A stretch of 64,000 bases of DNA from a virus. A model generated the notes under the pieces. That model ran no database searches. It saw only the letters and a list, made by a program, of their open reading frames with translations, and was not told the origin of the DNA. Positions within the stretch are counted from its first letter, which is position 1. Each line of letters begins with the position of its first letter. Of this stretch, positions 16,825 through 63,922 are shown piece after piece. The DNA lies in IMG/VR virus record IMGVR_UViG_3300046007_009543, positions 30,717 through 94,716 of that record; one strand, written 5' to 3'. The position numbers were made by a program, and so were the translations under genes.

Positions 16825-18543
16825 TTATATTAACTTATTAATCCAAGTTTTTAATTTTTCATGAAATTCAAAAGCGTCATCATCATTCATCTCACGAGTA
16901 CGTTTTCTTATTAATTCAAGTATTTCATCAAATAGTTCTTTTGCTTTACCTTCAACGATAGTATTTTCTGTTACTGAAGATGTTACTGTATATATATTTT
17001 TTCCTATTTTTAATTTAGTAAGTGTATTAACATTAATTGTTCTATATGCTTTTTCTGGATTTTCTTTATATTGCATATCATAAACAGGAATTAAACCTTT
17101 AGATTCAGCGTCATAAGCTAATGTTCCTCCTTTTAAATATTTTTTTACACCTAAACGAGCATTCATTACTCTTTCAGTACCATCCTTTTTATTAAATGTT
17201 GCTGTGAAAATTTTACCGTTTGTATCTTTTATTAAACGTTTAGCTTCTTCAGCACTAATTTCACCTGGTGGGGTTGATGGGGTTGGAGCCGGTTCATTAG
17301 ATCCTTCAAGTTCATTATTTTCATTTTCATCTAGACCTTCAAATTCATCATTTTTATCTAAGAAAAATATGTCTTTAATTTTACCATCAATACTAGATAA
17401 TATTAATTTAATATCACCACCGGATGGGGTTTTTGATGATACTCTAACTTTATTTCCGTTTTTAAATTTACCCAAATCAGCAGATAATGTAAAAATATCA
17501 CCTACAGCAATGTTTTTTCCTTTTATTTCATCTATTTGTCCTTCATCTAATCCACTTAAACCAGTATCATCTTTTTTAAGATCTTTTTCAATATCTTTCA
17601 TTTCACCCAATGCCCATCTTTTTTGTTCAGGTGTTAATTGATCATTAACAGCATTTTCTACAAATGGAAAAAATTCATCATCTCCTAGTTTATATAGCGA
17701 TGCAAAAAATAATTCACGTATTCTATTGTCATCTAAGTTACTCTCATTATATAACTTTGTTATCGCGTCATATATGAATTTTCCGAATCGAAAATCGTTA
17801 GGCTCATTTGATACTTTATCTACAGCACCAACAATAGCTTTATTTTTTTCTTTATCAGTTCCAAATCCTTCAGTTCCTACTATTTCATACAATCCTTTTA
17901 CAATTTCATGTACTAACATTGGAAAACAAAGTGCACGTGCTTTAATAACAAATTGCTCATTTTCTTCATCATATTCAACTTCACTTTCACCACCTTGCAT
18001 TTTTTGACCTTGTGCTAAAGCAGCTAACATCATAGCAATAGCATTTTCATCATCATATATACCAAATACTAATTTTAATATTTCATTATATCTATCTACT
18101 AAAGTATCATCCATCATATCAAGATATTCTCTAAATAAATAAAAAGCAAATGCTCCTCTAATTGATGCACCTTGAGTAATACCATTAATAATACGACGTC
18201 TTGCTTTTTCGGCTTCTGCTGGAATTTCTAGTGAAGGTTCATCATCTGATGGTTCTCCACTACCTATATCTCCTCCTATTTTAGCATCTATTTTAATATT
18301 AGCATAATCAATAATTGGATAAGCTTGAGTTACCATTTCTATTGCTATTCCTTCTAGTAAATCATGATATCCTTTTTCTGCTGCTATTATGTCATTTAAT
18401 ACTTCTTTAGATCTTATAAGGGTTTGCATTAATTCCTTGTTTCCAAGCATTTGTCTTAATGATTCACCTGATTTGCCTTTTAAGGCTGCCATTGTTTCAG
18501 GACGAAAAATATCTTCGTATTCTGCTTCTAGTAAATTAATCAT
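16825..18543 (-). CDS. Large head-associated protein candidate with WYL_2/DUF2693-like domain
   Basis: A 572-residue protein starting MINLLEAEYED. Residues 1-320 are helical and acidic. Near residues 400-430 is a Glu/Asn/Pro-rich linker. Residues about 440-520 form a compact beta domain (IFTATFNKKDGTERVM, VKKYLKGGTLAYD, GLIPVYDM, RTINVNTL) that closely matches the whole small protein at 63565-63846; this looks like the SH3-barrel domain known as DUF2693/WYL_2. A helical tail ends the protein. Its start overlaps the stop of the 148-residue gene by one base, and it belongs to the 16-22 kb operon. Confidence 0.7.
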   Translation of the reverse strand: MINLLEAEYEDIFRPETMAALKGKSGESLRQMLGNKELMQTLIRSKEVLNDIIAAEKGYHDLLEGIAIEMVTQAYPIIDYANIKIDAKIGGDIGSGEPSDDEPSLEIPAEAEKARRRIINGITQGASIRGAFAFYLFREYLDMMDDTLVDRYNEILKLVFGIYDDENAIAMMLAALAQGQKMQGGESEVEYDEENEQFVIKARALCFPMLVHEIVKGLYEIVGTEGFGTDKEKNKAIVGAVDKVSNEPNDFRFGKFIYDAITKLYNESNLDDNRIRELFFASLYKLGDDEFFPFVENAVNDQLTPEQKRWALGEMKDIEKDLKKDDTGLSGLDEGQIDEIKGKNIAVGDIFTLSADLGKFKNGNKVRVSSKTPSGGDIKLILSSIDGKIKDIFFLDKNDEFEGLDENENNELEGSNEPAPTPSTPPGEISAEEAKRLIKDTNGKIFTATFNKKDGTERVMNARLGVKKYLKGGTLAYDAESKGLIPVYDMQYKENPEKAYRTINVNTLTKLKIGKNIYTVTSSVTENTIVEGKAKELFDEILELIRKRTREMNDDDAFEFHEKLKTWINKLI

Positions 18544-18989
18544 TATTGTTTTGATTTTTCTCTTAATTTTTTAAGTACATTTGAATTAGCTGGGACATTC
18601 CATATTCCTTTATTAATGGCTGCTTTTGCTTGTTGTGGAGTCATTGCCTCTATTTCTTTATCAGTATATAAAGGTTTTGCTTTTGAATCTGATTTTTTGG
18701 AATCATTATCATCACCCAAAGTTAAAAGCTCATCCATTTGTTTACTTTTAAATCTTTTTGTAATTTTAGATATAATATCTGCTTCTTTAAGTGTAGCTTT
18801 AGCTTTAGGAGCTGGTTTAACATTAGGATTACCTAATTTTCTACGTTTTTCCTCTTTACCTGGTTTAGTTCCCGGTTCAGCTACTTCTCTACCAGGGGTT
18901 TCACGTGGTTTAGCAGGAGCAGGTTGATTTTCACTCAACACACTTTTGATTTCTTCTCTAATTATTTGTCTTAAATCTTTAATTTTCAT
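18543..18989 (-). CDS. Basic protein with capsid-targeting-like N-terminus
   Basis: A 148-residue, strongly basic protein. Residues 1-20 (MKIKDLRQIIREEIKSVLSE) form an amphipathic helix ending in L-S-E. Residues 22-75 are a disordered Pro/Lys/Arg/Glu linker, then a lysine-rich helical region ending PPQQAKAAINKG-like text and KKLREKSKQ. The make-up resembles packaged internal proteins of T4, which carry a cleavable N-terminal signal and a basic DNA-binding body; this is inference. Confidence 0.65.
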   Translation of the reverse strand: MKIKDLRQIIREEIKSVLSENQPAPAKPRETPGREVAEPGTKPGKEEKRRKLGNPNVKPAPKAKATLKEADIISKITKRFKSKQMDELLTLGDDNDSKKSDSKAKPLYTDKEIEAMTPQQAKAAINKGIWNVPANSNVLKKLREKSKQ

Positions 18990-22974: not shown

Positions 22975-23993
22975 TTTATTTTTACACAATTTGGATATTT
23001 TTTACCAAACATTGTTTTCATACCTTTTTGAGTATATCCTTTCCAACATTTTTCAGTAAGTATATCTTCTTCTAACATTTCATTTAACCATTTAGCATTT
23101 AAACCAATATAAACATTAGGTTGAATAAAACCTTCAGGATACATTTTAAATGCTTGTGTAGTTCTATGCCAGCCTTCTCCTAATTCATATTTACCATCTT
23201 TAGTTTTAAATATAATAATAGGTTCTTTAGATATTCCTTGACTTTTTAATAATTTTTGTTGTGTATTGTGTCTTTCAATATCCTTACCTACATCTTGTCT
23301 AATTTCCCCTCCAATTCTTGATTTTAATTCTTGTTGAGTTTTATTACCAAAAATATCCATTGTTATAGGAAAGTTTGTCTTAGTCTCCCATTTTAAATCT
23401 TTAAGTTGACTATCAATCCAATCCTGAATACCTTCGGCTGTGTTGATATTATCATCTTTTTTAATCATTTTATAAATCCAATCCTTTATAACATAATCAG
23501 GGAAATTTGGAAGTTGTTGTTTTAAATAATCTAAAAGACCTTGTCTTAACTCATTTATATTTTTATTTTTAACAGGAGCATAACCAGAACCATATGGTGC
23601 TGCTTTACCTGATTGTGGGTCTGCTGTTTCTTTTACTTTATTTAAACGTTGTGTTTTAGCTTTAGATGATTCTTTACGTTTTTCAATATAATCTAAAGCA
23701 CGTTTTAATCTAGATTTTACTTCAGGATCTTTTGCTTTACCATATGCTGCTCTTACTCGTTGATGAATTAAATTAATAATTTGTGATTGACGAGCATGTG
23801 GTTTAGATTTAAATGAATCTTTATTTAATGTATCAACTATATCTTCTTTAGTTTTAAATTTAATAGATACAGTATCTTTTGGATTTTCATCTGTGTATAA
23901 ACGACGACCTGATCCTTTAGGTTTTTTACCTGTTCCTTTTTTAGGATCATTTTCAGATAAAACCTCATTTAATATATCTAATAGTTTTATCAT
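22971..23993 (-). CDS. Head-associated protein candidate with ParB-like motif and Cys-containing tail
   Basis: A 340-residue protein. The N-terminus MIKLLDILNEVLSEN ends in L-S-E. A basic region (to about 120) is followed by the linker DPQSGKAAPYGSGYA, also present in the next protein upstream. Residues about 258-278 (FKTKDGKYELGEGWHRTTQA) match the GxxR/HR signature strand-turn of ParB/sulfiredoxin-type domains. The C-terminus (CWKGYTQKGMKTMFGKKYPNC) is a two-Cys basic motif that I recall at the ends of several marine phage proteins. Any nuclease or DNA-binding activity is inference. Confidence 0.7.
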   Translation of the reverse strand: MIKLLDILNEVLSENDPKKGTGKKPKGSGRRLYTDENPKDTVSIKFKTKEDIVDTLNKDSFKSKPHARQSQIINLIHQRVRAAYGKAKDPEVKSRLKRALDYIEKRKESSKAKTQRLNKVKETADPQSGKAAPYGSGYAPVKNKNINELRQGLLDYLKQQLPNFPDYVIKDWIYKMIKKDDNINTAEGIQDWIDSQLKDLKWETKTNFPITMDIFGNKTQQELKSRIGGEIRQDVGKDIERHNTQQKLLKSQGISKEPIIIFKTKDGKYELGEGWHRTTQAFKMYPEGFIQPNVYIGLNAKWLNEMLEEDILTEKCWKGYTQKGMKTMFGKKYPNCVKIK

Positions 23994-24463
23994 TTTGTTT
24001 TACCCCATTTAGTACCTTTACCTTTTGCTTTACATCCTGCTGGAGTTGGTCTGCAAGCTGGATATGCTCGTTTTTCGCCTTTTTGTCTTCCACAAGGTTT
24101 GTAACCAGTTATTTTACCATCTTTTCTAATTGGAGCATTACAATCAACCCACCCACCTGTTTTACCAGGAGCACCTTTACGAGAAAACCAAGTTCTAAGT
24201 GTTTCTTTTACTTTTTCAAGAATTAATTCTTCTTCAACCTTAGCATATCCTGATCCATATGGTGCTGCTTTACCTGATTGAGGATCGTCTGTTTCTTTTA
24301 TATCTTTCCAAATTTTTCCAGCGCGACATCTTACAACAGCTCCTGATTTGTAAGCTGATGGTTTATCAAACTTACGATCAGCAATACGAAGACATCTGTC
24401 TCGTTTTACTTTTTTTTCAGAAAGTATTTCTCTAATAAGTTGTTGTAATTCAGATGTATTCAT
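23990..24463 (-). CDS. Cys-rich basic protein with candidate capsid-targeting N-terminus
   Basis: A 157-residue protein. The ATG at 24463 lies directly after the upstream stop, and gives MNTSELQQLIREILSEKK, with L-S-E at 14-16; an upstream ATG in frame lies inside the neighbouring gene. It has RDRCLRIADRKFDKPSAYKS near 20-40, the shared linker DPQSGKAAPYGSGYA near 66-80, and a C-terminal region with at least five Cys (WVDCNAPI, GYKPCGRQKGEKR, YPACRPTPAGCKAKG). Metal or nucleic-acid binding is likely from composition. Its stop overlaps the next start. Confidence 0.7.
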   Translation of the reverse strand: MNTSELQQLIREILSEKKVKRDRCLRIADRKFDKPSAYKSGAVVRCRAGKIWKDIKETDDPQSGKAAPYGSGYAKVEEELILEKVKETLRTWFSRKGAPGKTGGWVDCNAPIRKDGKITGYKPCGRQKGEKRAYPACRPTPAGCKAKGKGTKWGKTK

Positions 24464-24464
24464 A

Positions 24465-25109
24465 TTACCATTTTTTACAAGACCAGTAACGAGCTTTCCA
24501 TCTTGGACCTGGGTTTTTGCAATTGTGTCTTGCTCTAAAGGCTGCACGTCTTTTAGGATTTTTATCCTTAATTACCATTCTTTTACCTTTAGCTGATTTA
24601 CCACCAAATCCAAAGTTAACTTTTACTACATTACCTTTATCATTTTTAACATATACTTTGAATTTCTTAACATCACCCTGCATTGGTTTACCTAAAGTTA
24701 CTTTACGACCTTGGTATTCTGCCTCGGTTAATATATCATTATCAGGCATTGGTAAGTCTAAAGGTACTTTTTTACCTTCATATATTCCATATTCACCCAA
24801 GTTAGTTTCAGTAATTTTTTCTTTATCAATACCTTCAACATTTAAAGCACCACGAGAATATAAGTATCTTGCTTCAGCCCATAAATTTAAATATTCTTTT
24901 GAACCGTATGGTAAAGTTGTTTCAAATAGCGGTGTTTTAGCGTCTATATGGTATTGCATATTTTCAGTCATAACAATACGCGCTTTTAAACTTTCATTTA
25001 ATATAGGTGCATCAAAACACTTAGCAGTACCCTTACAACCACAACCACAATCTGGTTTTTTAGAGGTCTCTGATAGCACTTTTCTTATTAATTCTTTTAA
25101 ATTATGCAT
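24465..25109 (-). CDS. Head-associated protein candidate with conserved RARHNC tail
   Basis: A 214-residue protein. Residues 1-14 (MHNLKELIRKVLSE) form the shared amphipathic segment ending L-S-E. A Cys cluster follows (PDCGCGCKGTAKC at 19-31). The C-terminal 70 residues (TLGKPMQGDVKKFKVYVKN, then KRRAAFRARHNCKNPGP and KARYWSCKKW) form a basic conserved module that I recall at the ends of structural proteins of marine phages. A late motif lies two bases upstream of the start, so the gene opens the 22.0-25.1 kb operon. Confidence 0.75.
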   Translation of the reverse strand: MHNLKELIRKVLSETSKKPDCGCGCKGTAKCFDAPILNESLKARIVMTENMQYHIDAKTPLFETTLPYGSKEYLNLWAEARYLYSRGALNVEGIDKEKITETNLGEYGIYEGKKVPLDLPMPDNDILTEAEYQGRKVTLGKPMQGDVKKFKVYVKNDKGNVVKVNFGFGGKSAKGKRMVIKDKNPKRRAAFRARHNCKNPGPRWKARYWSCKKW

Positions 25110-31454: not shown

Positions 31455-32234
31455 TTATGATATTTTAATAGTAGTTGGGAGTGTTTGAGTTAATGGTTTG
31501 TAGTCAGGATTTTCCATTTTAAAAATATCATATATTTTAGTAAACATATTAAAATTATGTTCTATATTACCTATTTGTTTTAATTGCCATCCACTACCTT
31601 GAATTTTATCTTTAGCAGGACCTCGTGTAGCTGCTTTTAACCATACTATACCTGTATCTGTTACTTTTTCACTATGTGTTTCATTCCATGCTTGAGCATA
31701 GGCTGCTAGTTGTAAATTATATGAATTATGAATTGAATTTGATGTTTTAATATCTAATAAATATAATACTCCTGCTATTCTACATATAATATCTGCAGTA
31801 CCTGCGAATTTATATTCATCTGAAAATAAATGATATTCTGTTGCTATTAGTTCTGGTTTATGTGTATTCCAAAAATCAGCAAATTTTAATATCATTTTCC
31901 AAATTTCTAAACCGTATAAAGCATTTCCATCCTCATCAATCCAACTTAATTCATTTCCATTAAGAAAATGTTCAATAGCATTGTGTACTTGTGTACCTTC
32001 CCATGCTGCTTTTTGAGCAATAATTTCACTATTATGACCTACATCTTTAAGCCAATCGTGAAAAAATTTATTTTTAGGAAAATAGTTTAATATACTAGAT
32101 ACTGAAGGATAATATTCCTCGTTTCGTCTGTAAAAACGTTGATCTAATACGTTAATTTGTTTATTATCAGAACTATATTGTATAATTCGTTTAATTTTAG
32201 GATCATGGATAATATTTGAGTTTTTGTCTATCAT
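31455..32234 (-). CDS. RecB/Cas4-like PD-(D/E)xK exonuclease
   Basis: A 259-residue protein with the RecB nuclease signature: AAWEGTQVHNAIEHFL near 75-90, FAGTADIICRIAGVLYLLDIK near 140-160 (Asp then D-x-K), and LQLAAYAQAW near 175-184 (QxxxY). These are the three diagnostic motifs of RecB/Cas4-type exonucleases. It overlaps the primase gene by four bases, so it acts with replication or recombination proteins. Confidence 0.85.
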   Translation of the reverse strand: MIDKNSNIIHDPKIKRIIQYSSDNKQINVLDQRFYRRNEEYYPSVSSILNYFPKNKFFHDWLKDVGHNSEIIAQKAAWEGTQVHNAIEHFLNGNELSWIDEDGNALYGLEIWKMILKFADFWNTHKPELIATEYHLFSDEYKFAGTADIICRIAGVLYLLDIKTSNSIHNSYNLQLAAYAQAWNETHSEKVTDTGIVWLKAATRGPAKDKIQGSGWQLKQIGNIEHNFNMFTKIYDIFKMENPDYKPLTQTLPTTIKIS

Positions 32235-33160
32235 AATGTTAGTTTTTTTCCTAGTAAACTAGAAAAGGTTAATGGATAAGTGTCTTGAATTAATTTTGTA
32301 AAGTTTTCAAAACCCATTTCGCTTGGGTCTTTATCTTGCATATCTACTAGATAAACTTCTTTACCTTCAGACATTAGCTTTTCACAAAAACTCAAGGCTT
32401 GTTTTTGAGCATCCCTGTCTAAGGCGATATATATTTTGTCAACACTAGATTTTACAATTTTCTTCATTAAATTAGATTGTATATTTTTACCTAGTAGTGG
32501 GATAGTATTTCTTTTAATTGTTGTTGCATCAAATGGTCCTTCACACAATATAATTGGTAATTCCCAATTTATATATAATTCAAAAGGAATTATATCACGT
32601 GATACTGTTGGGTTTTTATATTTTATAAATGAATCTTTTTTAAATGAACGTCCTGTAAAATAATTTAATTTACCATTTGCATCGTATGAAGGAATAATTA
32701 TCATATTAGCATATGGTCCTGAATCGCAATAACCCATATTATATTTAATTATATCTTCTTCTAATATATTTCTAGATTTTAAGTATGATAATGCATGTCT
32801 ACCTATAATATTTAATTGACTAATATTCAATAGTGATTTATATTCTTTAGGTAGTTCTACTTTTTCCTCTACTGTTATTTGTTTTTCTGAGAATCCTCCT
32901 TTAGTAAGTGATTTTAATTCTGATATTATTTCAGGTGATAATGGGGATAGTTTTAAAACTTGATATGCTTTTTTACCTTTTTTATCACATGCCCAACAAT
33001 GCCAAGGATTTTCACCCTTTTCATTTTCGTTAAAATTAATTTCTAGTTTTGGTTTATGGTGATTACAAAAAGGACAATGATATGCATAATTTCCTCTAGA
33101 AGTAGATTTACCTGTTCCTAATACAGAATTAACCAAAGCTATTAAAGGTTGATTTAACAT
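32231..33160 (-). CDS. 61: DNA primase, T4 gp61-like
   Basis: A 309-residue primase. The N-terminal zinc-binding domain reads YHCPFCNHH near 27-35 and WHCWACDKKG near 52-61. The TOPRIM-type core includes IILCEGPFDATTI near 199-211 (conserved Glu) and KIYIALDRDAQKQAL near 233-247 (DxD). Between them is the RNA-polymerase-like region. In T4, gp61 makes pentamer primers with the gp41 helicase. A terminator precedes it (33174-33199), so its transcript starts in the short gap at 33161-33173 or it is read through. Confidence 0.88.
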   Translation of the reverse strand: MLNQPLIALVNSVLGTGKSTSRGNYAYHCPFCNHHKPKLEINFNENEKGENPWHCWACDKKGKKAYQVLKLSPLSPEIISELKSLTKGGFSEKQITVEEKVELPKEYKSLLNISQLNIIGRHALSYLKSRNILEEDIIKYNMGYCDSGPYANMIIIPSYDANGKLNYFTGRSFKKDSFIKYKNPTVSRDIIPFELYINWELPIILCEGPFDATTIKRNTIPLLGKNIQSNLMKKIVKSSVDKIYIALDRDAQKQALSFCEKLMSEGKEVYLVDMQDKDPSEMGFENFTKLIQDTYPLTFSSLLGKKLTL

Positions 33161-33173
33161 AACCTTAATATAA

Positions 33174-33199
33174 TAAAAAAAGCTTGGTTTTCCAAGCTT
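33174..33199 (-). terminator. Terminator after the 118-residue gene
   Basis: The minus strand has AAGCTTGG and CCAAGCTT paired around AAAA, followed by seven T, nine bases downstream of the 118-residue gene stop. Confidence 0.9.
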
Positions 33200-33208
33200 A
33201 ATTTAAAA

Positions 33209-33565
33209 TTATTTTATTTTTTTGATTTTTGCTTTTGTTTCCTCAGCTTTTTCTTTAATAGCTTTTTGAGCACTTCTATATTCTTCCATTGATGTTTCAA
33301 CTTCTTTAAGTTGATCTTCAAATGATTTTAATGCTTCACCAGCTAAACGATTTGCTTCAGATTTATTTTTATAAACACCCAATGTTTCTTCTGCTTTAAT
33401 ATCATCAAAAACAGTAGCTTCTTGAACCATATTTTCTTTAGTCATACCTTTTTTAGGTTTTTTAACTACAAAAAATTTACCAATTTCATCTACTGGGATG
33501 TGTGCTTCTTCTTGGATATTTGCTAATTCTTCTAGAATTAGTTTTCTTAAATCTGTTAGTTTCAT
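33209..33565 (-). CDS. Coiled-coil protein with candidate capsid-targeting N-terminus
   Basis: A 118-residue protein. Residues 1-19 (MKLTDLRKLILEELANIQE) form the shared amphipathic helix, with I-Q-E at the end. The C-terminal 55 residues are a charged coiled coil ending KEKAEETKAKIKKIK. It is a one-gene transcript: a late motif lies four bases upstream, and a terminator closes it, so it is likely abundant late. Function unknown; packaged protein by inference. Confidence 0.7.
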   Translation of the reverse strand: MKLTDLRKLILEELANIQEEAHIPVDEIGKFFVVKKPKKGMTKENMVQEATVFDDIKAEETLGVYKNKSEANRLAGEALKSFEDQLKEVETSMEEYRSAQKAIKEKAEETKAKIKKIK

Positions 33566-33577: not shown

Positions 33578-34027
33578 TTATAAAAAGTCTTTACTGTAGA
33601 ATTTTCCTAAAATATTGTCGTTAAACCATTTATCAGGATTTTCTAACACACCATGAGTAAACATATATTTACACTCATAGTATGTTAGTAATTTTTTATT
33701 GGGTACCAACTGTAGTATCTGACGGGTAAATTCCTCTTGTTTACCGTCCTTTATCAGTGCTAAGATTGGTTTTGCGGACCCAAAATATGTTTTCCAATCG
33801 GATTCTTTTTTAACAATTTCTGTTAATACTTTTCGTCCTCTTGTTACGGGCATTTCTGCTAATTCTTTTTTGGTTAATTTGCGCTTTACGTTGTGATATA
33901 GCGATTTTTTCCCTAAATACGATACTTCGCTCGGAGTATGAGTTACCATGTATATATACCCAAAAGTGTCGGTTGGGAAATCATCCAGTGATATTATTTC
34001 TTTATTTTCGTATAACCAATTATTCAT
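33578..34027 (-). CDS. GIY-YIG-like putative nuclease
   Basis: A 149-residue protein. FGYIYMVTHTPSEVSYLGKKSL near 22-43 in two strands matches the GIY-YIG core (GYIYxxT...YLGKK). Later conserved text includes KKESDWKTYFGSA near 73-85 and YYECKYMFTHGVL near 115-128, which I recall from small nucleases of T4-like phages. Either a resident nuclease or a homing enzyme. It lies three bases upstream of the tail genes. Confidence 0.65.
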   Translation of the reverse strand: MNNWLYENKEIISLDDFPTDTFGYIYMVTHTPSEVSYLGKKSLYHNVKRKLTKKELAEMPVTRGRKVLTEIVKKESDWKTYFGSAKPILALIKDGKQEEFTRQILQLVPNKKLLTYYECKYMFTHGVLENPDKWFNDNILGKFYSKDFL

Positions 34028-59923: not shown

Positions 59924-59957
59924 GGTGAACATACAAATAAAATATTGTGTATCCAAA
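59924..59957 (-). promoter_or_regulatory. Promoter TTTG-N20-TATGTTCAC
   Basis: Minus strand TTTGG with exactly 20 bases between TTTG and TATGTTCACC, upstream of the 125-residue gene. Confidence 0.8.
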
Positions 59958-59963
59958 TATTAT

Positions 59964-60656
59964 TTAGGCATACTCAAACACACCAAAATTAATTAGTCTT
60001 AATGCTGTAGTGGGACCTATATCATCTCCTATTTCACGGCACTCTAGATAGATTTTGGGTTTAGATGGATCAATTCCTGGGGCAAATCCTGTTACAGTAT
60101 AAACATCACCCACATCAATATATGATAATCTGTTACCTCTAGGTTCTACAGCATTAGCTTCTTCAGCAGTATTGAAATAAAGGCTAGGGCTACGAGGATT
60201 CTCTGGATCGGAAACCCGATACACTTCTTTCTTTACTCGGAGCTTATCTCCTACTTTTAACCTACGTGGGTCTACTTTTATTGGATTACCTATTTTTATC
60301 TCCTTTACCTCAGACTTTCTAATATGTTTAAATGCTCCTAATCTTGATATTGAGATAATTGTTGCAATTAATATTGTATTACCTACAGAATATGGATCAT
60401 TACTTTGAATACATGTTGCCACTAAAATATTATCTTTTTTTAATTCCCACACATCATCCTTATATGTAAATACCCCATATTCTCCTTGTTGGGGTGTTAA
60501 TGTTGGTTTATCTCCTTCTTCATCCCAGTATACTGTTTTAATTACTATCAGTTTATCTCCTGTTTCAAGACGTTTAATATTAACTGTAAGTGGATTATCC
60601 ACTTTCATCTCCTTTATGCCTGCTAGTTCCTGTAGACGTCTAAATTCATCATTCAT
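59964..60656 (-). CDS. Two-repeat protein with LAGIKE start
   Basis: A 230-residue protein. The ATG at 60656 (MNDEFRRLQELAGIKE) is preferred to the one at 60662, which lies in the TATTTATGATTATG leader. The LQELAGIKE segment ends in I-K-E. Two copies of a unit (KVDNPLTVNIKRLETGDKLI and KIGNPIKVDPRRLKVGDKLR) occupy the two halves, each with a small beta domain; the same unit forms the 99-residue protein upstream. Late-type leader, so possibly a virion protein. Confidence 0.65.
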   Translation of the reverse strand: MNDEFRRLQELAGIKEMKVDNPLTVNIKRLETGDKLIVIKTVYWDEEGDKPTLTPQQGEYGVFTYKDDVWELKKDNILVATCIQSNDPYSVGNTILIATIISISRLGAFKHIRKSEVKEIKIGNPIKVDPRRLKVGDKLRVKKEVYRVSDPENPRSPSLYFNTAEEANAVEPRGNRLSYIDVGDVYTVTGFAPGIDPSKPKIYLECREIGDDIGPTTALRLINFGVFEYA

Positions 60657-60681
60657 AATCATAAATATAGAACCGGATTAA

Positions 60682-60981
60682 CTATTCTTGTACATACCTA
60701 AATGCTGCATAATCTAGCATTCTTTGAATATGGTAACTGCCCATCATAGTACGTGCCTTTCCTTGACCTTGAACAAAATTTAATTGACCAAACTGGCCAA
60801 GACGTTCTACTTTCCACACATCACCACTCATAACATATGGAGGATGATCTTTAGTTGCTCGTAGTTTATCCCCTATCTTAAGTTCATCATATGTTGGGAT
60901 TGGATTTCTTACTGTTATCTCCTTTATGCCTGCAAGTTTTTGCATGCGTTTAAATTCTTCATTTAATATTTGCTTTTTCAT
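60682..60981 (-). CDS. One-repeat protein with LAGIKE start
   Basis: A 99-residue protein, ATG 60981 (MKKQILNEEFKRMQKLAGIK), closely related to the first half of the neighbouring 230-residue protein (LKIGDKLRATKD). EEFKRMQKLAGI is a start I recall in many marine T4-like phage proteins. It follows the same TATTTATGATTATG leader. Function unknown. Confidence 0.65.
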   Translation of the reverse strand: MKKQILNEEFKRMQKLAGIKEITVRNPIPTYDELKIGDKLRATKDHPPYVMSGDVWKVERLGQFGQLNFVQGQGKARTMMGSYHIQRMLDYAAFRYVQE

Positions 60982-61007
60982 AATCATAAATATTGTTCGT
61001 AATAGAA

Positions 61008-61028
61008 GGGATGCTCTATGAGCACCCC
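61008..61028 (-). terminator. Possible terminator after the 38-residue gene
   Basis: GGGGTGCTC and GAGCATCCC pair over nine positions (one G-U) with a three-base loop, but only TTCTATT follows. Weak U-tract. Confidence 0.5.
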
Positions 61029-61049
61029 AACCTTAATAATAAAACAGCA

Positions 61050-61166
61050 CTAAAGATTATTTGTACTTAACAGTGTAATAAACACTATTAATGCAACTGT
61101 GAATGTGGTGATAATCCCCACTTTGATCCTGTCTGTTGGGTTCATTGTTATTGATTTATTGTTCAT
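61050..61166 (-). CDS. 38-residue membrane peptide
   Basis: ATG 61166 to stop 61050: MNNKSITMNPTDRIKVGIIT then a transmembrane run (TFTVALIVFITLL). It overlaps the upstream 52-residue gene stop. Possibly a phage membrane toxin or lysis-timing peptide; unknown. Confidence 0.55.
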   Translation of the reverse strand: MNNKSITMNPTDRIKVGIITTFTVALIVFITLLSTNNL

Positions 61167-61314
61167 ATTGTTTGATTGATTTGAGAGCTACTCCTAAATA
61201 AATTGAAATAATACACATTAAAAACATCCCCATGATGTCTCTAAATGCTAATAGTACAACAAATGTTATGCTTGTTAATACTAATAATGTTATGACTTTG
61301 GTTTTAATATTCAT
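61156..61314 (-). CDS. 52-residue two-helix membrane peptide
   Basis: ATG 61314 to stop 61156: MNIKTKVITLLVLTSITFVV then LLAFRDIMGMFLMCIISIYL and GVALKS. Two transmembrane segments. Its ATG lies within six bases of the -7 box of the promoter at 61317-61350, so the mRNA may be leaderless. Confidence 0.65.
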   Translation of the reverse strand: MNIKTKVITLLVLTSITFVVLLAFRDIMGMFLMCIISIYLGVALKSIKQYEQ

Positions 61315-61316
61315 AC

Positions 61317-61350
61317 TGTGAACATACGATTTATGTTTTGTGGTTCCAAA
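61317..61350 (-). promoter_or_regulatory. Promoter TTTG-N20-TATGTTCACA
   Basis: Minus strand TTTG, 20 bases, TATGTTCACA directly before ATG 61314. The -33 box lies four bases after tRNA-like element D. Confidence 0.8.
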
Positions 61351-61354
61351 TGAG

Positions 61355-61469
61355 TAGTCAGGACAGGAATCGAACCTGCATTTAATCCACCATGATTAAT
61401 CATACCTTACACATCCATATTTCTATGAATGTTTATCGGTATAGCGTCTACCAATTCCGCCACCTGACT
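61355..61469 (-). ncRNA. tRNA-like element D (class II-like, interrupted anticodon loop)
   Basis: 115 bases. Acceptor AGTCAGG/CCTGACT, D-arm GCGGAATTGGTAGACGC like tRNA-Leu, anticodon stem ATACC/GGTAT, T-arm with TTCGATT. A variable arm TTAATC-ATGGTG-GATTAA is typical of class II tRNAs. The anticodon loop is 31 bases because of a hairpin ACATTCATA-GAAA-TATGGATGT inside it. No encoded CCA. Confidence 0.8.
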
Positions 61470-61473
61470 ATGT

Positions 61474-61635
61474 TTAAAGAGCTTCGTAATATTCTTTTAG
61501 AAAATAGTTTTTATCCCACTTACCATTGATTTTATCTTTTGTTTTATACTTACCCCAACTCTTACTAAATGTAAATATTGTACCTAATTTCTCTGAACCT
61601 GGGTATTGTTTTATTAATATGTATGCTTCTTTCAT
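61474..61635 (-). CDS. 53-residue hypothetical protein between elements D and E
   Basis: ATG 61635 to stop 61474: MKEAYILIKQYPGSEKLGTI then FTFSKSWGKYKTKDKINGKW. Basic and aromatic, no membrane segment. It starts 17 bases after element E and ends four bases before element D. Confidence 0.6.
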   Translation of the reverse strand: MKEAYILIKQYPGSEKLGTIFTFSKSWGKYKTKDKINGKWDKNYFLKEYYEAL

Positions 61636-61652
61636 AACTTTTTTTTATTTAG

Positions 61653-61732
61653 TAGTCAGGACAAGATTTGAACTTGCAATATCGGCTTGATTTTTATGTC
61701 TTGCTTCTGCGCTACCTTTCCGCCACCTGACT
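61653..61732 (-). ncRNA. tRNA-like element E
   Basis: 80 bases. Acceptor AGTCAGG/CCTGACT, D-arm GCGGAAAGGTAGCGC, T-arm GCAAG-TTCAAAT-CTTGT. The middle (about 30 bases, with AGAAGCAAGACATAAAAATC) forms only a weak stem with A-A mismatches and no clear 7-base anticodon loop. Discriminator A, no CCA. Confidence 0.7.
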
Positions 61733-61736
61733 ATTT

Positions 61737-61883
61737 TTATTTCCCCATATATTCTCTATAAGTCATTATACTTGCAATTACAGCTCCACCCATACAAATA
61801 ATTCCAAATAAATGTTTAGCTACTAACATTACTACAAACATCACCATGGATAAGATTATTATTATTTCTAATTTATTTTTCAT
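61737..61883 (-). CDS. 48-residue two-helix membrane peptide
   Basis: ATG 61883 to stop 61737: MKNKLEIIIILSMVMFVVML then HLFGIICMGGAVIASIMTY. Two transmembrane segments. The ATG is adjacent to the promoter box TATGTTCACATT, so the transcript is probably leaderless. Its stop lies four bases before element E. Confidence 0.65.
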   Translation of the reverse strand: MKNKLEIIIILSMVMFVVMLVAKHLFGIICMGGAVIASIMTYREYMGK

Positions 61884-61885
61884 AA

Positions 61886-61919
61886 TGTGAACATACAATC
61901 TTATCCTTAATCAAACAAA
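61886..61919 (-). promoter_or_regulatory. Promoter TTTG-N20-TATGTTCACA
   Basis: The -33 box lies inside the last codons of the 182-residue gene; 20-base spacer; ATG 61883 follows directly. Confidence 0.8.
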
Positions 61920-62455
61920 TATATTCTATAATTATTATATAGGGCTACTCGGTTTATATCACTTAGGACACCATATCTGTCCTTAATGGTCTCTTTCAGT
62001 TCACGCGCACCCAGGCCCTCGTTAAGGCCTTCACTCATGAACTGGGCAAACGTGTCGTTCGACTCATCCACTTCATCCTGCTTCGTGCCCGACAACCCAC
62101 ACCATTCAGCCTCACTCACCTCAGATATAAACATGCCCGTGGAAAATCCCTTCAAGCTATATCTCCTAACAAATTGATCTGCATTGCACCATATGAATAT
62201 GTTCTCTTTACCTTGAAGATAATAAACCTCATCTGGGCCTATAATTACTCCAGGCGAGGGGAACTGACCCACACTAAACAGGCCCCCTGGGTACCCATGC
62301 CCCATCATAATGATTCGATCGTGTGCTTGGATCAGCTCATGTAGCTCTTTCCGGGTCGTACCCCCAGTAATCACTATCTTATCTGGGATCCCAGCGTAGA
62401 TAGGCTTCAGGAAATCCGTCGACCTATCTTTAGGGTGTATTATTAATGTTTTCAT
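61907..62455 (-). CDS. GC-rich protein with caspase/CHAT-like His-Cys pattern
   Basis: A 182-residue protein. A hydrophobic strand followed by GHG (RIIMMGHGYPGG, His53) and a second strand followed by Cys (IFIWCNADQF, Cys90) recall the His-Gly and Cys of clan CD (caspase/CHAT) proteases; GFSTGMFISEVSEA follows. I recall this protein type in Bacteroidota phages and mobile elements, without known function. The gene is strikingly GC-rich (stretches near 62000-62160) against an AT-rich background, so it is probably a recent arrival. It overlaps the DUF4314 gene by one base. Confidence 0.6.
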   Translation of the reverse strand: MKTLIIHPKDRSTDFLKPIYAGIPDKIVITGGTTRKELHELIQAHDRIIMMGHGYPGGLFSVGQFPSPGVIIGPDEVYYLQGKENIFIWCNADQFVRRYSLKGFSTGMFISEVSEAEWCGLSGTKQDEVDESNDTFAQFMSEGLNEGLGARELKETIKDRYGVLSDINRVALYNNYRIYLFD

Positions 62456-62637
62456 TATTCTATTATTTCGTATTCGTCTATACCGTCAATTATATTTAAA
62501 CCTCTACCATTATCCCATTTTACCTCAAGGATGTTTTGGCCCTGTACCACGTTTTCTTTAATAACGGTTCCTAATGTTCCTGGTTCTACTGGATCAAAAT
62601 CATCCATTTTGATTAGTTTTATTCTTTTTGGTATCAT
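62455..62637 (-). CDS. DUF4314-like small protein
   Basis: A 60-residue protein from ATG 62637 (MIPKRIKLIKMDDFDPVEPG then TLGTVIKEN). VKWDNGRGLNIIDGIDEYEI is the DUF4314 signature. Earlier ATG lies in the promoter. Function unknown; it is translationally coupled to the caspase-like gene, so the pair may act together. Confidence 0.75.
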   Translation of the reverse strand: MIPKRIKLIKMDDFDPVEPGTLGTVIKENVVQGQNILEVKWDNGRGLNIIDGIDEYEIIE

Positions 62638-62642
62638 AATAT

Positions 62643-62676
62643 TGTGAACATACAAAAAGGGATCTGGTTATCCAAA
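62643..62676 (-). promoter_or_regulatory. Promoter TTTG-N20-TATGTTCACA inside a terminator
   Basis: The -33 TTTGG is part of the stem of the hairpin at 62653-62682. The spacer is 20 bases and the gene start follows after six bases. Confidence 0.85.
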
Positions 62677-62682
62677 TCCCTC
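62653..62682 (-). terminator. Terminator hairpin carrying a promoter box
   Basis: GGGATTTGG and CCAGATCCC pair over nine positions around ATAA, followed by TTTTTG. It ends the upstream transcript and contains the -33 box of the next. Confidence 0.8.
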
Positions 62683-62722
62683 TTTAAGCCTGTCGCCAAT
62701 CTTCTATTGCTAGAAAATATCT

Positions 62723-62821
62723 TTAAAATATTAATGTTGCTAAAATATAAATTATTGAACCTAACATAGTGCAGAATAAACCTGCTTCAATTCCTTTTAA
62801 TATTATTCTTTTTATATTCAT
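62723..62821 (-). CDS. 32-residue membrane peptide
   Basis: ATG 62821 to stop 62723: MNIKRIILKGIEAGLFCTML then GSIIYILATLIF. One transmembrane helix. The ATG follows the promoter box TATATTCACATT, suggesting a leaderless transcript. Confidence 0.6.
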   Translation of the reverse strand: MNIKRIILKGIEAGLFCTMLGSIIYILATLIF

Positions 62822-62823
62822 AA

Positions 62824-62857
62824 TGTGAATATACAATGTTAGTTTTATTTCTCCAAA
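62824..62857 (-). promoter_or_regulatory. Promoter TTTG-N20-TATATTCACA
   Basis: The -33 box lies in the last codons of the 50-residue gene; 20-base spacer. Confidence 0.75.
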
Positions 62858-62997
62858 TCTATTCTTTTATCTCCAAAAGCACTTAATCCTGCATTCCAAT
62901 TAATAATATAATGTATACATTTACCTCCACGACCTAACCAAAATATTCTTTGTTCTTTGTTAAAGTTGTTTGTTTTGTTGTTGTTATTATTATTCAT
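62845..62997 (-). CDS. 50-residue hypothetical protein with Asn-rich start
   Basis: ATG 62997 to stop 62845: MNNNNNNKTNNFNKEQRIFW then LGRGGKCIHYIINWNAGLSA. Function unknown. Its 3' end includes the -33 box of the next promoter. Confidence 0.55.
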   Translation of the reverse strand: MNNNNNNKTNNFNKEQRIFWLGRGGKCIHYIINWNAGLSAFGDKRIDLEK

Positions 62998-62999
62998 AA

Positions 63000-63033
63000 T
63001 GTGAACATACAATTTTTATTTTGTTCCTCCAAA
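63000..63033 (-). promoter_or_regulatory. Promoter TTTG-N20-TATGTTCACA
   Basis: The -33 box lies in the NPFGG codons of the 73-residue gene; the ATG at 62997 follows the -7 box directly. Confidence 0.8.
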
Positions 63034-63237
63034 AGGATTTAAATGTATTACATTTTCACCTACAATCATAACTTTATCTTTAACTCCATTATCATATCTA
63101 ATGGTAATAGTATTATCATCTTCCTCAATTATAAATGCCCCATTAACTTGTTCTTCAGCTTCTTCTAATTCATATTCATTACATAACCAATCAATTATTT
63201 GTTGATATTCTTTATCTTTTTTATTTATTATTTTCAT
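63016..63237 (-). CDS. Acidic hypothetical protein
   Basis: A 73-residue protein from ATG 63237 (MKIINKKDKEYQQIIDWLCN); the upstream MYVHS reading is promoter sequence. It is acidic (EYELEEAEEQVNGAF) with a C-terminal beta stretch (TITIRYDNGVKDKVMIVG). Function unknown. Confidence 0.6.
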   Translation of the reverse strand: MKIINKKDKEYQQIIDWLCNEYELEEAEEQVNGAFIIEEDDNTITIRYDNGVKDKVMIVGENVIHLNPFGGTK

Positions 63238-63239
63238 AC

Positions 63240-63272
63240 TGTGAACATACAAAAAGAGAGTTATATTTCAAA
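63240..63272 (-). promoter_or_regulatory. Promoter TTTG-N19-TATGTTCACA inside a terminator
   Basis: The -33 TTTG lies in the loop of the hairpin at 63250-63280; the ATG at 63237 follows the -7 box closely. Confidence 0.8.
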
Positions 63273-63280
63273 CTCTCTCC
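63250..63280 (-). terminator. Terminator hairpin carrying a promoter box
   Basis: GAGAGTT and AACTCTC pair around a TGAAATAT loop, followed by TTTTTG, between the 63-residue and 73-residue genes. Confidence 0.75.
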
Positions 63281-63291
63281 TTAATTGTTTT

Positions 63292-63483
63292 TTAAAACAT
63301 TCCTCCGTCAATTACAAAACATTTTCTTTCTTCTTCATCATCTTCAAAATACACCTTTTCTACTCCACAACTGTCAATTTCATTATTATAAGTCCAATCT
63401 GTAGGATCTGTACCTCTAATGATTACTTCAACACTTTTGTCTTTAACTTTGTTTAGTCTGTTAATTAATTCTTGTACTGTCAT
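63292..63483 (-). CDS. Small protein of an RIIB/ParD-like beta-helix type, unknown
   Basis: A 63-residue protein from ATG 63483 (MTVQELINRLNKVKDKSVEV). VQELINRLNKVKDKSVEVII then GTDPTDWTYNNEIDSC resembles short phage proteins recalled as LxxxLxKxPxxxxVxxxxxD-type; the family is uncertain. The upstream MYVHS reading is rejected. Confidence 0.55.
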   Translation of the reverse strand: MTVQELINRLNKVKDKSVEVIIRGTDPTDWTYNNEIDSCGVEKVYFEDDEEERKCFVIDGGMF

Positions 63484-63503
63484 ATTATTATTTATTATTA
63501 TAC

Positions 63504-63537
63504 TGTGAACATACAAAAAGAGACTTAGTTACCCAAG
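63504..63537 (-). promoter_or_regulatory. Promoter CTTG-N20-TATGTTCACA inside a terminator
   Basis: The -33 CTTGG lies in the hairpin at 63515-63545; the start codon is about 20 bases after the -7 box, so this gene has a short leader. Confidence 0.75.
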
Positions 63538-63545
63538 TCTCTTCT
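63515..63545 (-). terminator. Terminator hairpin carrying a promoter box
   Basis: AGAGACTT and AAGTCTCT form an 8-bp stem around GGGTAACT, followed by TTTTTG. Confidence 0.8.
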
Positions 63546-63564
63546 TTAAAACATAATAACCCAA

Positions 63565-63846
63565 TTACCAATTTTCTACTAATTCACCTTCTTCAAAAGT
63601 GTATATTTGTTTTTCTGATTTAATTTCTGTTACAGTCTGAGAATTAATCATTCTATAACCTTCACTTTTTAAATCATAAACAGGTATTAAACCTTTTTCA
63701 ATAGGATCATAAGCTAACTCTCCACCTTTAAGGTGTTTTGTTACTTTTCTTCTACCATTCAACACTCTTACTGTACCATCTTTCTTAATAAATGTAACTG
63801 TGAAGATTTTATCTCCTAACAATTCGATTACGTTTTCTACTTTCAT
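63565..63846 (-). CDS. WYL_2/DUF2693-like SH3-barrel protein
   Basis: A 93-residue protein from ATG 63846 (MKVENVIELLGDKIFTVTFI). IFTVTFIKKDGTVRVLNGRR, then TKHLKGGELAYD and GLIPVYDL match the DUF2693/WYL_2 domain. A clearly related copy is embedded in the 572-residue protein at 16825-18543 (about residues 440-520). Probably a nucleic-acid or ligand-binding regulator; unknown. Confidence 0.75.
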   Translation of the reverse strand: MKVENVIELLGDKIFTVTFIKKDGTVRVLNGRRKVTKHLKGGELAYDPIEKGLIPVYDLKSEGYRMINSQTVTEIKSEKQIYTFEEGELVENW

Positions 63847-63863
63847 ATTAATTATTATTATGA

Positions 63864-63897
63864 TGTAAACATACAAAAAGGGATTCAGTTACCCAAA
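63864..63897 (-). promoter_or_regulatory. Promoter TTTG-N20-TATGTTTACA inside a terminator
   Basis: The -33 TTTGG lies in the hairpin at 63875-63905; 20-base spacer. Confidence 0.8.
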
Positions 63898-63905
63898 TCC
63901 CTTTT
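63875..63905 (-). terminator. Terminator hairpin carrying a promoter box
   Basis: GGGATTTGG and CTGAATCCC arms pair around a short loop, flanked by A5 and followed by TTTTTG. Confidence 0.8.
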
Positions 63906-63922
63906 TGTAATAATAATAAAAC

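Follow-up and report, generated by a model that had tools for sequence, protein, structure and literature searches.

Predicted terminator hairpins that contain the -33 box of the next promoter in a T4-like phage

Four predicted terminator hairpins within 1.3 kb of phage DNA hold part of the promoter that follows each of them, which raises the question of whether one short cassette can end a gene and start the next, and whether such a design helps small genes to be gained or exchanged. The window, meaning the whole 64 kb stretch analysed here, is the final part of a 94,716-base virus record. It encodes a T4-type terminase and a Gp23-type capsid protein, which place the phage among the T4-like phages, and a weak match to Sigma70_r2 hints at a late sigma factor like gp55. 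Among named phages, the closest relative is the isolated Flavobacterium phage vB_FspM_immuto (53% identity in the capsid protein); this relationship and the promoter type make Flavobacterium or a relative the likely host. Two further records belong to the window phage, G001 (171,684 bases) and G002 (55,596 bases), and G001 is 99.9% identical to the window over the 3 kb compared. A rearrangement relative to G001, suspected at the window's end, was ruled out by this identity.

Nine array promoters, four of them with the -33 box in a hairpin

Nine promoters lie on the minus strand between 59.9 and 63.9 kb (first -7 bases from 59,933 to 63,873), each with NTTG, a spacer of 19–20 bp and TATRTT. At four of the nine (63,873, 63,513, 63,249 and 62,652), the -33 box sits inside a hairpin. 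The initial annotation had described four terminator hairpins carrying TTTG or CTTG, with a U-tract running into the -7 box at a spacing of 19–20 bases; all four were located, on the minus strand, and this observation is confirmed. Its picture of four fused sites in 1.3 kb was incomplete: a fifth cassette (33163–33199) had been missed, and five further promoters of this kind within the 4 kb of the array have no hairpin.

Cassette 1 (63864..63902) comprises a hairpin at 63902-63879 with TTTG at 63897-63894, a T-tract at 63879-63875 and the -7 box TATGTTTACA at 63873-63864, and precedes a 93-aa WYL_2 gene on the minus strand that starts at 63846. In cassette 2 (63504..63543, minus strand), the hairpin spans 63543-63518, CTTG occupies 63537-63534 and the -7 box TATGTTCACA occupies 63513-63504, ahead of a 65-aa minus-strand gene starting at 63489. 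The same -7 box recurs in the other two, both also on the minus strand: cassette 3 (63240..63278; hairpin 63278-63255, TTTG 63272-63269, -7 box 63249-63240) precedes a 73-aa gene whose start, 63237, is the predicted +1, and cassette 4 (62643..62681; hairpin 62681-62658, TTTG 62676-62673, -7 box 62652-62643) precedes a 60-aa DUF4314 gene starting at 62637. From cassette 1 to cassette 4, the spacers between TTTG or CTTG and the -7 box measure 20, 20, 19 and 20 bases, and the hairpins have folding energies of -13.6, -16.6, -14.0 and -19.8 kcal/mol, with z between -3.6 and -5.8. The gap between the end of the T-tract and the -7 box is 0–1 base in all four.

The five hairpin-less members of the class, also on the minus strand, fold no better than shuffled sequences (z about 0). 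They lie at 63000..63033 (TTTG 63033-63030, -7 box 63009-63000), 62824..62857 (TTTG 62857-62854, -7 box 62833-62824), 61886..61919 (TTTG 61919-61916, -7 box 61895-61886), 61317..61350 (TTTG 61350-61347, -7 box 61326-61317) and 59924..59957 (TTTG 59957-59954, -7 box 59933-59924).

Promoter and terminator halves of the cassette

The promoter half resembles the Bacteroidetes primary-sigma promoter (-33 TTTG / -7 TAnnTTTG; PMC6847099, PMC9723704) in having TTG near -33, about 20 bp before TAnnTT, with the same order of elements and the same start distance. It differs in that the phage -33 box is strong and nearly invariant, whereas that of F. johnsoniae is weak, and in that TATGTTCACA agrees with the host consensus TAnnTTTG in TAnnTT only: T-6 and G-5 are absent. 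As the TTTG part of the -7 consensus is not kept, we class these promoters as sigma-A-like rather than as members of the sigma-A class. The phage box also frequently has G-9, a base nearly absent among F. johnsoniae promoters (PMC6847099). Given the missing T-6 and G-5 and the frequent G-9, use by unmodified host polymerase is uncertain, and a phage-modified polymerase or an accessory factor is possible.

The -7 box covers positions -12 to -5 in F. psychrophilum and F. johnsoniae (PMC9723704, PMC6847099), and when 12 nt separate the ATG from the box's first base, the ATG would coincide with +1. In G001, 16 of 47 promoters have exactly this distance, a peak well above all others, and leaderless messages are therefore predicted. 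Within the window, the minus-strand promoters with first -7 bases at 61326, 61895, 62833, 63009, 63249 and 33172 have this spacing, and leaderless messages from them appear likely; the leaderless share of F. psychrophilum mRNAs is just 5.5% (PMC9723704). At the promoters 59933, 62652, 63513 and 63873, the ATG lies beyond +1 at 12 plus a multiple of three (15, 27, 27 and 30 nt), and the leaders hold AAT/ATA repeats.

The other half has the features of an intrinsic (rho-independent) terminator: a stable, GC-bearing stem-loop with a T-tract right after it on the gene strand, and pairing preserved by compensatory changes. Across 30 distinct cassettes, chosen with TTG required, 94% of cells pair, and changes on both sides occur in 31 cells, against a shuffled mean of 8.4 and with none of 500 shuffles reaching 31. 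When the partner is slid by one base, every pairing measure drops. Within this preselected set, the TTG columns show no changes in the 5′ arm and 13 changes to G-U wobbles in the 3′ arm, an asymmetry inflated by the requirement for TTG; a terminator scan made without knowledge of the promoter points the same way. This is how two demands on one sequence, base pairing in RNA and a promoter TTG, should look. The proposal that one cassette of about 40 bases would end one gene and start the next is well supported by the sequence itself, by covariation, and by the controls and conservation described below.

Occurrence across genomes and probable gene insertion at the primase locus

Scanned with a -33/-7 profile, G001 has 51 sites on the plus strand and 0–3 on the minus strand, and a similar but longer profile finds 0.1–1.5 sites in each Markov genome. 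Most promoters of the class have no hairpin, and most overlap the end of the preceding gene; the median gap between the upstream stop codon and the -33 box is 27 nt with a hairpin and -12 nt without. Counts of paired positions show a second peak at 8–9 of 9. A promoter-blind scan of G001 returned 23 terminators (3.7 expected), 15 of which have a -7 box downstream and NTTG at precisely the -33 position, with one more off by a base. Under a looser rule, the -33 box is carried by 16/23 terminators in G001, 6/10 in a different phage, G004 (two doubtful), 6/25 in immuto, 4/19 in G007, 3/11 in G011, 1/13 in G009 and 1/11 in G010, the site in G010 having another geometry. The same scan of five control phages (Microcystis phage Mel-JY01, Rhodothermus phage RM378, Cellulophaga phages phi14:2 and phi38:1, and T4) found the box in 0 of 90 terminators (Fisher 3e-11 for cassette phages against controls). 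Relatives down to about 50% protein identity share the design; in immuto, cassettes lie near 22.1, 46.5, 64.5, 104.4 and 160.4 kb. Pure chance was set aside on the profile excess over Markov genomes and the 0/90 in controls. A sigma-70 scan gave no excess (86 against 83.6 expected) and listed just one of the reported hairpins, on the opposite strand.

Searches further afield returned few cassettes. A viral search for TTTG-N18-TGTATGTTCACA gave 19 loci, most of them looking like chance, the genuine ones being in G001, G002 and G004. A cassette search of 84,980 bacterial and archaeal genomes gave a single match, on a 4 kb Cetobacterium MAG contig (L175, NZ_CAMQYW010000174.1), which may be a mis-binned phage fragment. 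Loci found through the 93-aa WYL_2 protein yielded just two fused sites, with a different geometry. We also observed a second geometry, in which TTTG lies in the loop or on the loop side of a GC-rich hairpin 20 nt before TATATT (L329 2853, L339 1636, G001 8003 and G010 45879), perhaps an independent origin of the overlap.

Comparison at individual genes shows which half is steadier. A cassette precedes the primase gene in G001, G007, L053, L057 and immuto (49.5% amino-acid identity), and an 886-aa protein gene in G001, G007, G009 and G011, with differing stems. Before a 426-aa protein, the two halves are fused in G001, and several relatives show a -33/-7-like sequence only. From these three genes, the promoter emerges as the steadier part.

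Cassette 5 of the window (33163..33199, minus strand; hairpin 33199-33180, CTTG 33196-33193, -7 box TATATTAAGG 33172-33163) lies directly before the DNA primase gene (32231..33160, minus strand), whose start at 33160 is the predicted +1. Between the primase and its usual upstream neighbour, a 149-aa homing-endonuclease-like gene (33578..34027, minus strand; PHROG 447 and 7363), stands a 118-aa gene (33209..33565, minus strand) that bears the N-terminal tag MKLTDLRKLILEEL and is preceded by the late-type motif ATATTTATAAC. Because L053 compared with L057 suggested insertion at the cassette's edge, we examined the 80 closest primase loci in IMG/VR, on metagenomic contigs and representing this one locus. 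The promoter is almost always retained across them: the -7 box starts 12 nt before the primase ATG in 64/80 and 13 nt before it in 10/80, and the distance from NTTG to the -7 box is 20 bases in 63/77 loci and 19 in 13/77. Most of these loci have no hairpin. A hairpin is present in just one of 60 loci where the homing-endonuclease-like neighbour is adjacent, against 18 of 20 where another gene lies between or the usual neighbour is not within 600 bp (Fisher 1e-14); the exceptions are thus two loci with another gene and no hairpin, and one neighbour-adjacent locus with a hairpin. The primase tree implies 11–14 hairpin changes, and in tree-independent pairs the hairpin follows insertion in 9/10, with none opposed (p=0.004).

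One pair, L243 and L244, has primase genes 98.8% identical over 800 nt and neighbour ends 98.5% identical, and differs by one block of about 313 bp that holds a gene and a -33-bearing hairpin and ends at the -7 box. Most of these upstream genes are preceded by ATATTTATAA-like motifs, and short N-terminal tags, among them MDNFDLKKYLVENK and IRMQKLAGLITE, recur in them; on these signals, they would be late genes. The gene strand of G001 has 36 copies of ATATTTATAA, 30 of them no more than 45 nt ahead of a gene, and the other strand has three; the motif is a probable late promoter. It often stands directly after terminators and has no -33 box of its own, and it is also present downstream of terminators in G007, G009, G010 and G011.

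The initial annotation had seen in the array a modular way to insert or exchange small genes. At the primase locus, the 80 contigs support this, with inserted genes accompanied by the hairpin and the promoter being kept; for the four array sites, the same insertion history would be an extrapolation. For most small genes of the array, no relative was found in the six other phage genomes compared, which fits turnover.

A proposed insulated promoter, its alternatives and known systems

We interpret each site as an insulated promoter that gains its terminator half together with an incoming gene, usually a late one, and give this reading a probability of roughly 0.8. The transcript of the upstream gene would form the hairpin and U-tract and stop there. 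As double strand, the same DNA of about 45 bases would offer polymerase a -33 box, NTTGG, on the loop-proximal 5′ arm, followed by a spacer that includes the 3′ arm and the T-tract, and then by the -7 box TATRTT. Polymerase with a sigma-A-like factor could then start the next RNA from this shared DNA, about 12 bases past the first -7 base, in many cases on the first letter of the ATG. On this view, the promoter is the constant part and the terminator an optional graft where the upstream gene has its own transcription. Between the primase's old neighbour and the retained -7 box sits a single block, made up of the upstream gene, its late-type motif and the hairpin with the -33 box, which would have entered as a unit.

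The overlap might instead be a by-product of compaction, with the shared bases incidental and without a role in gene gain, a reading we consider less probable but give real weight. Short intergenic gaps and the many promoters that run into the preceding gene's end agree with it, and it is possible that compaction selected the overlap and that insertion is incidental; yet at many sites, and in many genomes, the -33 box keeps a single fixed register within the hairpin, the compact T4 and Cellulophaga phages are among the controls with 0/90, and the hairpin is repeatedly associated with inserted genes. The palindrome (core CTTGG-N4-CCAAG) could also act as an operator that covers the -33 box and is bound by a phage regulator, and some primase loci that lack a full terminator do retain a short CTTGG...CCAAG-like palindrome. 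An operator should conserve letters and not pairing alone, but here the loops and the outer pairs of the stem differ between cassettes, with compensatory changes, a T-tract follows, and the hairpin tracks the presence of the upstream gene, all of which leave the operator improbable.

Two further readings concern the boxes themselves. That TTGTATGTTCAC is a coding start (a TTG start, MYVH...) rather than a promoter box draws on its being open and in frame with the ATG at the window sites, but is very hard to reconcile with a -33 box that keeps its distance and falls beyond any such frame, with -7 sequences that vary elsewhere (TATATTAAGG, TATCTTAAGA) and with ATG offsets that are not multiples of three. 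Coincidence of the -33 box and the hairpin could likewise reflect a DNA structure required for promoter recognition, as in the phage N4 early promoters, where the hairpin would be found in every promoter of the class; most promoters here, including orthologous ones, have the same -33 box, spacer and -7 box with no hairpin, and we give this almost no credence. One extension of the insulated-promoter reading is rather doubtful but attractive: a polymerase releasing its RNA at the T-tract would already sit on the next -33/-7 and could restart there. Polymerase retained after termination can reinitiate in vitro (PMC6978380), which makes such a relay possible. The likeness lies in a promoter near an intrinsic terminator that is usable by the just-terminated polymerase; the difference is that the earlier work used E. 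coli templates in vitro with separate elements. If true, the relay would make the array a row of insulated single-gene units read by recycled polymerases with no new recruitment, and would link single-molecule studies of reinitiation after termination with an arrangement found in nature.

At the frd-ampC boundary of E. coli, the end of one unit and the control region of the next share DNA. This is a single case, in which the hairpin common to both follows the ampC start as an attenuator and does not enclose the upstream promoter box. Part of frdD lies within the ampC promoter (PMC11796351). In cluster K mycobacteriophages, the SAS/ESAS elements (PMC3203893) are also repeated before many small genes, about half with an inverted repeat. 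SAS, by contrast, is a 13-bp element at translation starts, and the ESAS repeats are 17 bp with a variable spacer and no T-tract or promoter box described; the SAS element GGGATAGGAGCCC, as defined there, is absent from the aligned cassette sites, which places them outside that family. In the open-access literature, we found no description of a phage terminator hairpin that carries a -33 box and is reused genome-wide.

The insulated-promoter reading would account for how a compact phage genome takes in a gene upstream of a promoter it needs, keeping that promoter and avoiding read-through, since the incoming terminator would bring a new -33 box in place of the old one. The hairpin is present at some orthologous loci and absent from others, in some cases beside near-identical primase genes, and these form natural comparison pairs. 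The parts are small (about 45 bp) and tandem-capable, and might be used in Bacteroidetes as compact insulated promoters.

The N-terminal tags LQELAGIKE, LIREILSE and MDNFDLKKYLVENK are shared by many otherwise different genes (window 59964-60662, 60682-60987, 18543-18989, 23990-24463, 24465-25109 and 33209-33565; L053 199-1609), and resemble the capsid-targeting tags on T4 internal proteins. The few differences between the window and G001 in the 3 kb compared all fall in the 5′ flank of the hairpin at 63880-63910: between ACAAAAAGGG in the window and ATGAAGAGGG at 131,555-131,600 of G001, all of them perfect the inverted repeat, as in quasipalindrome-templated mutation.
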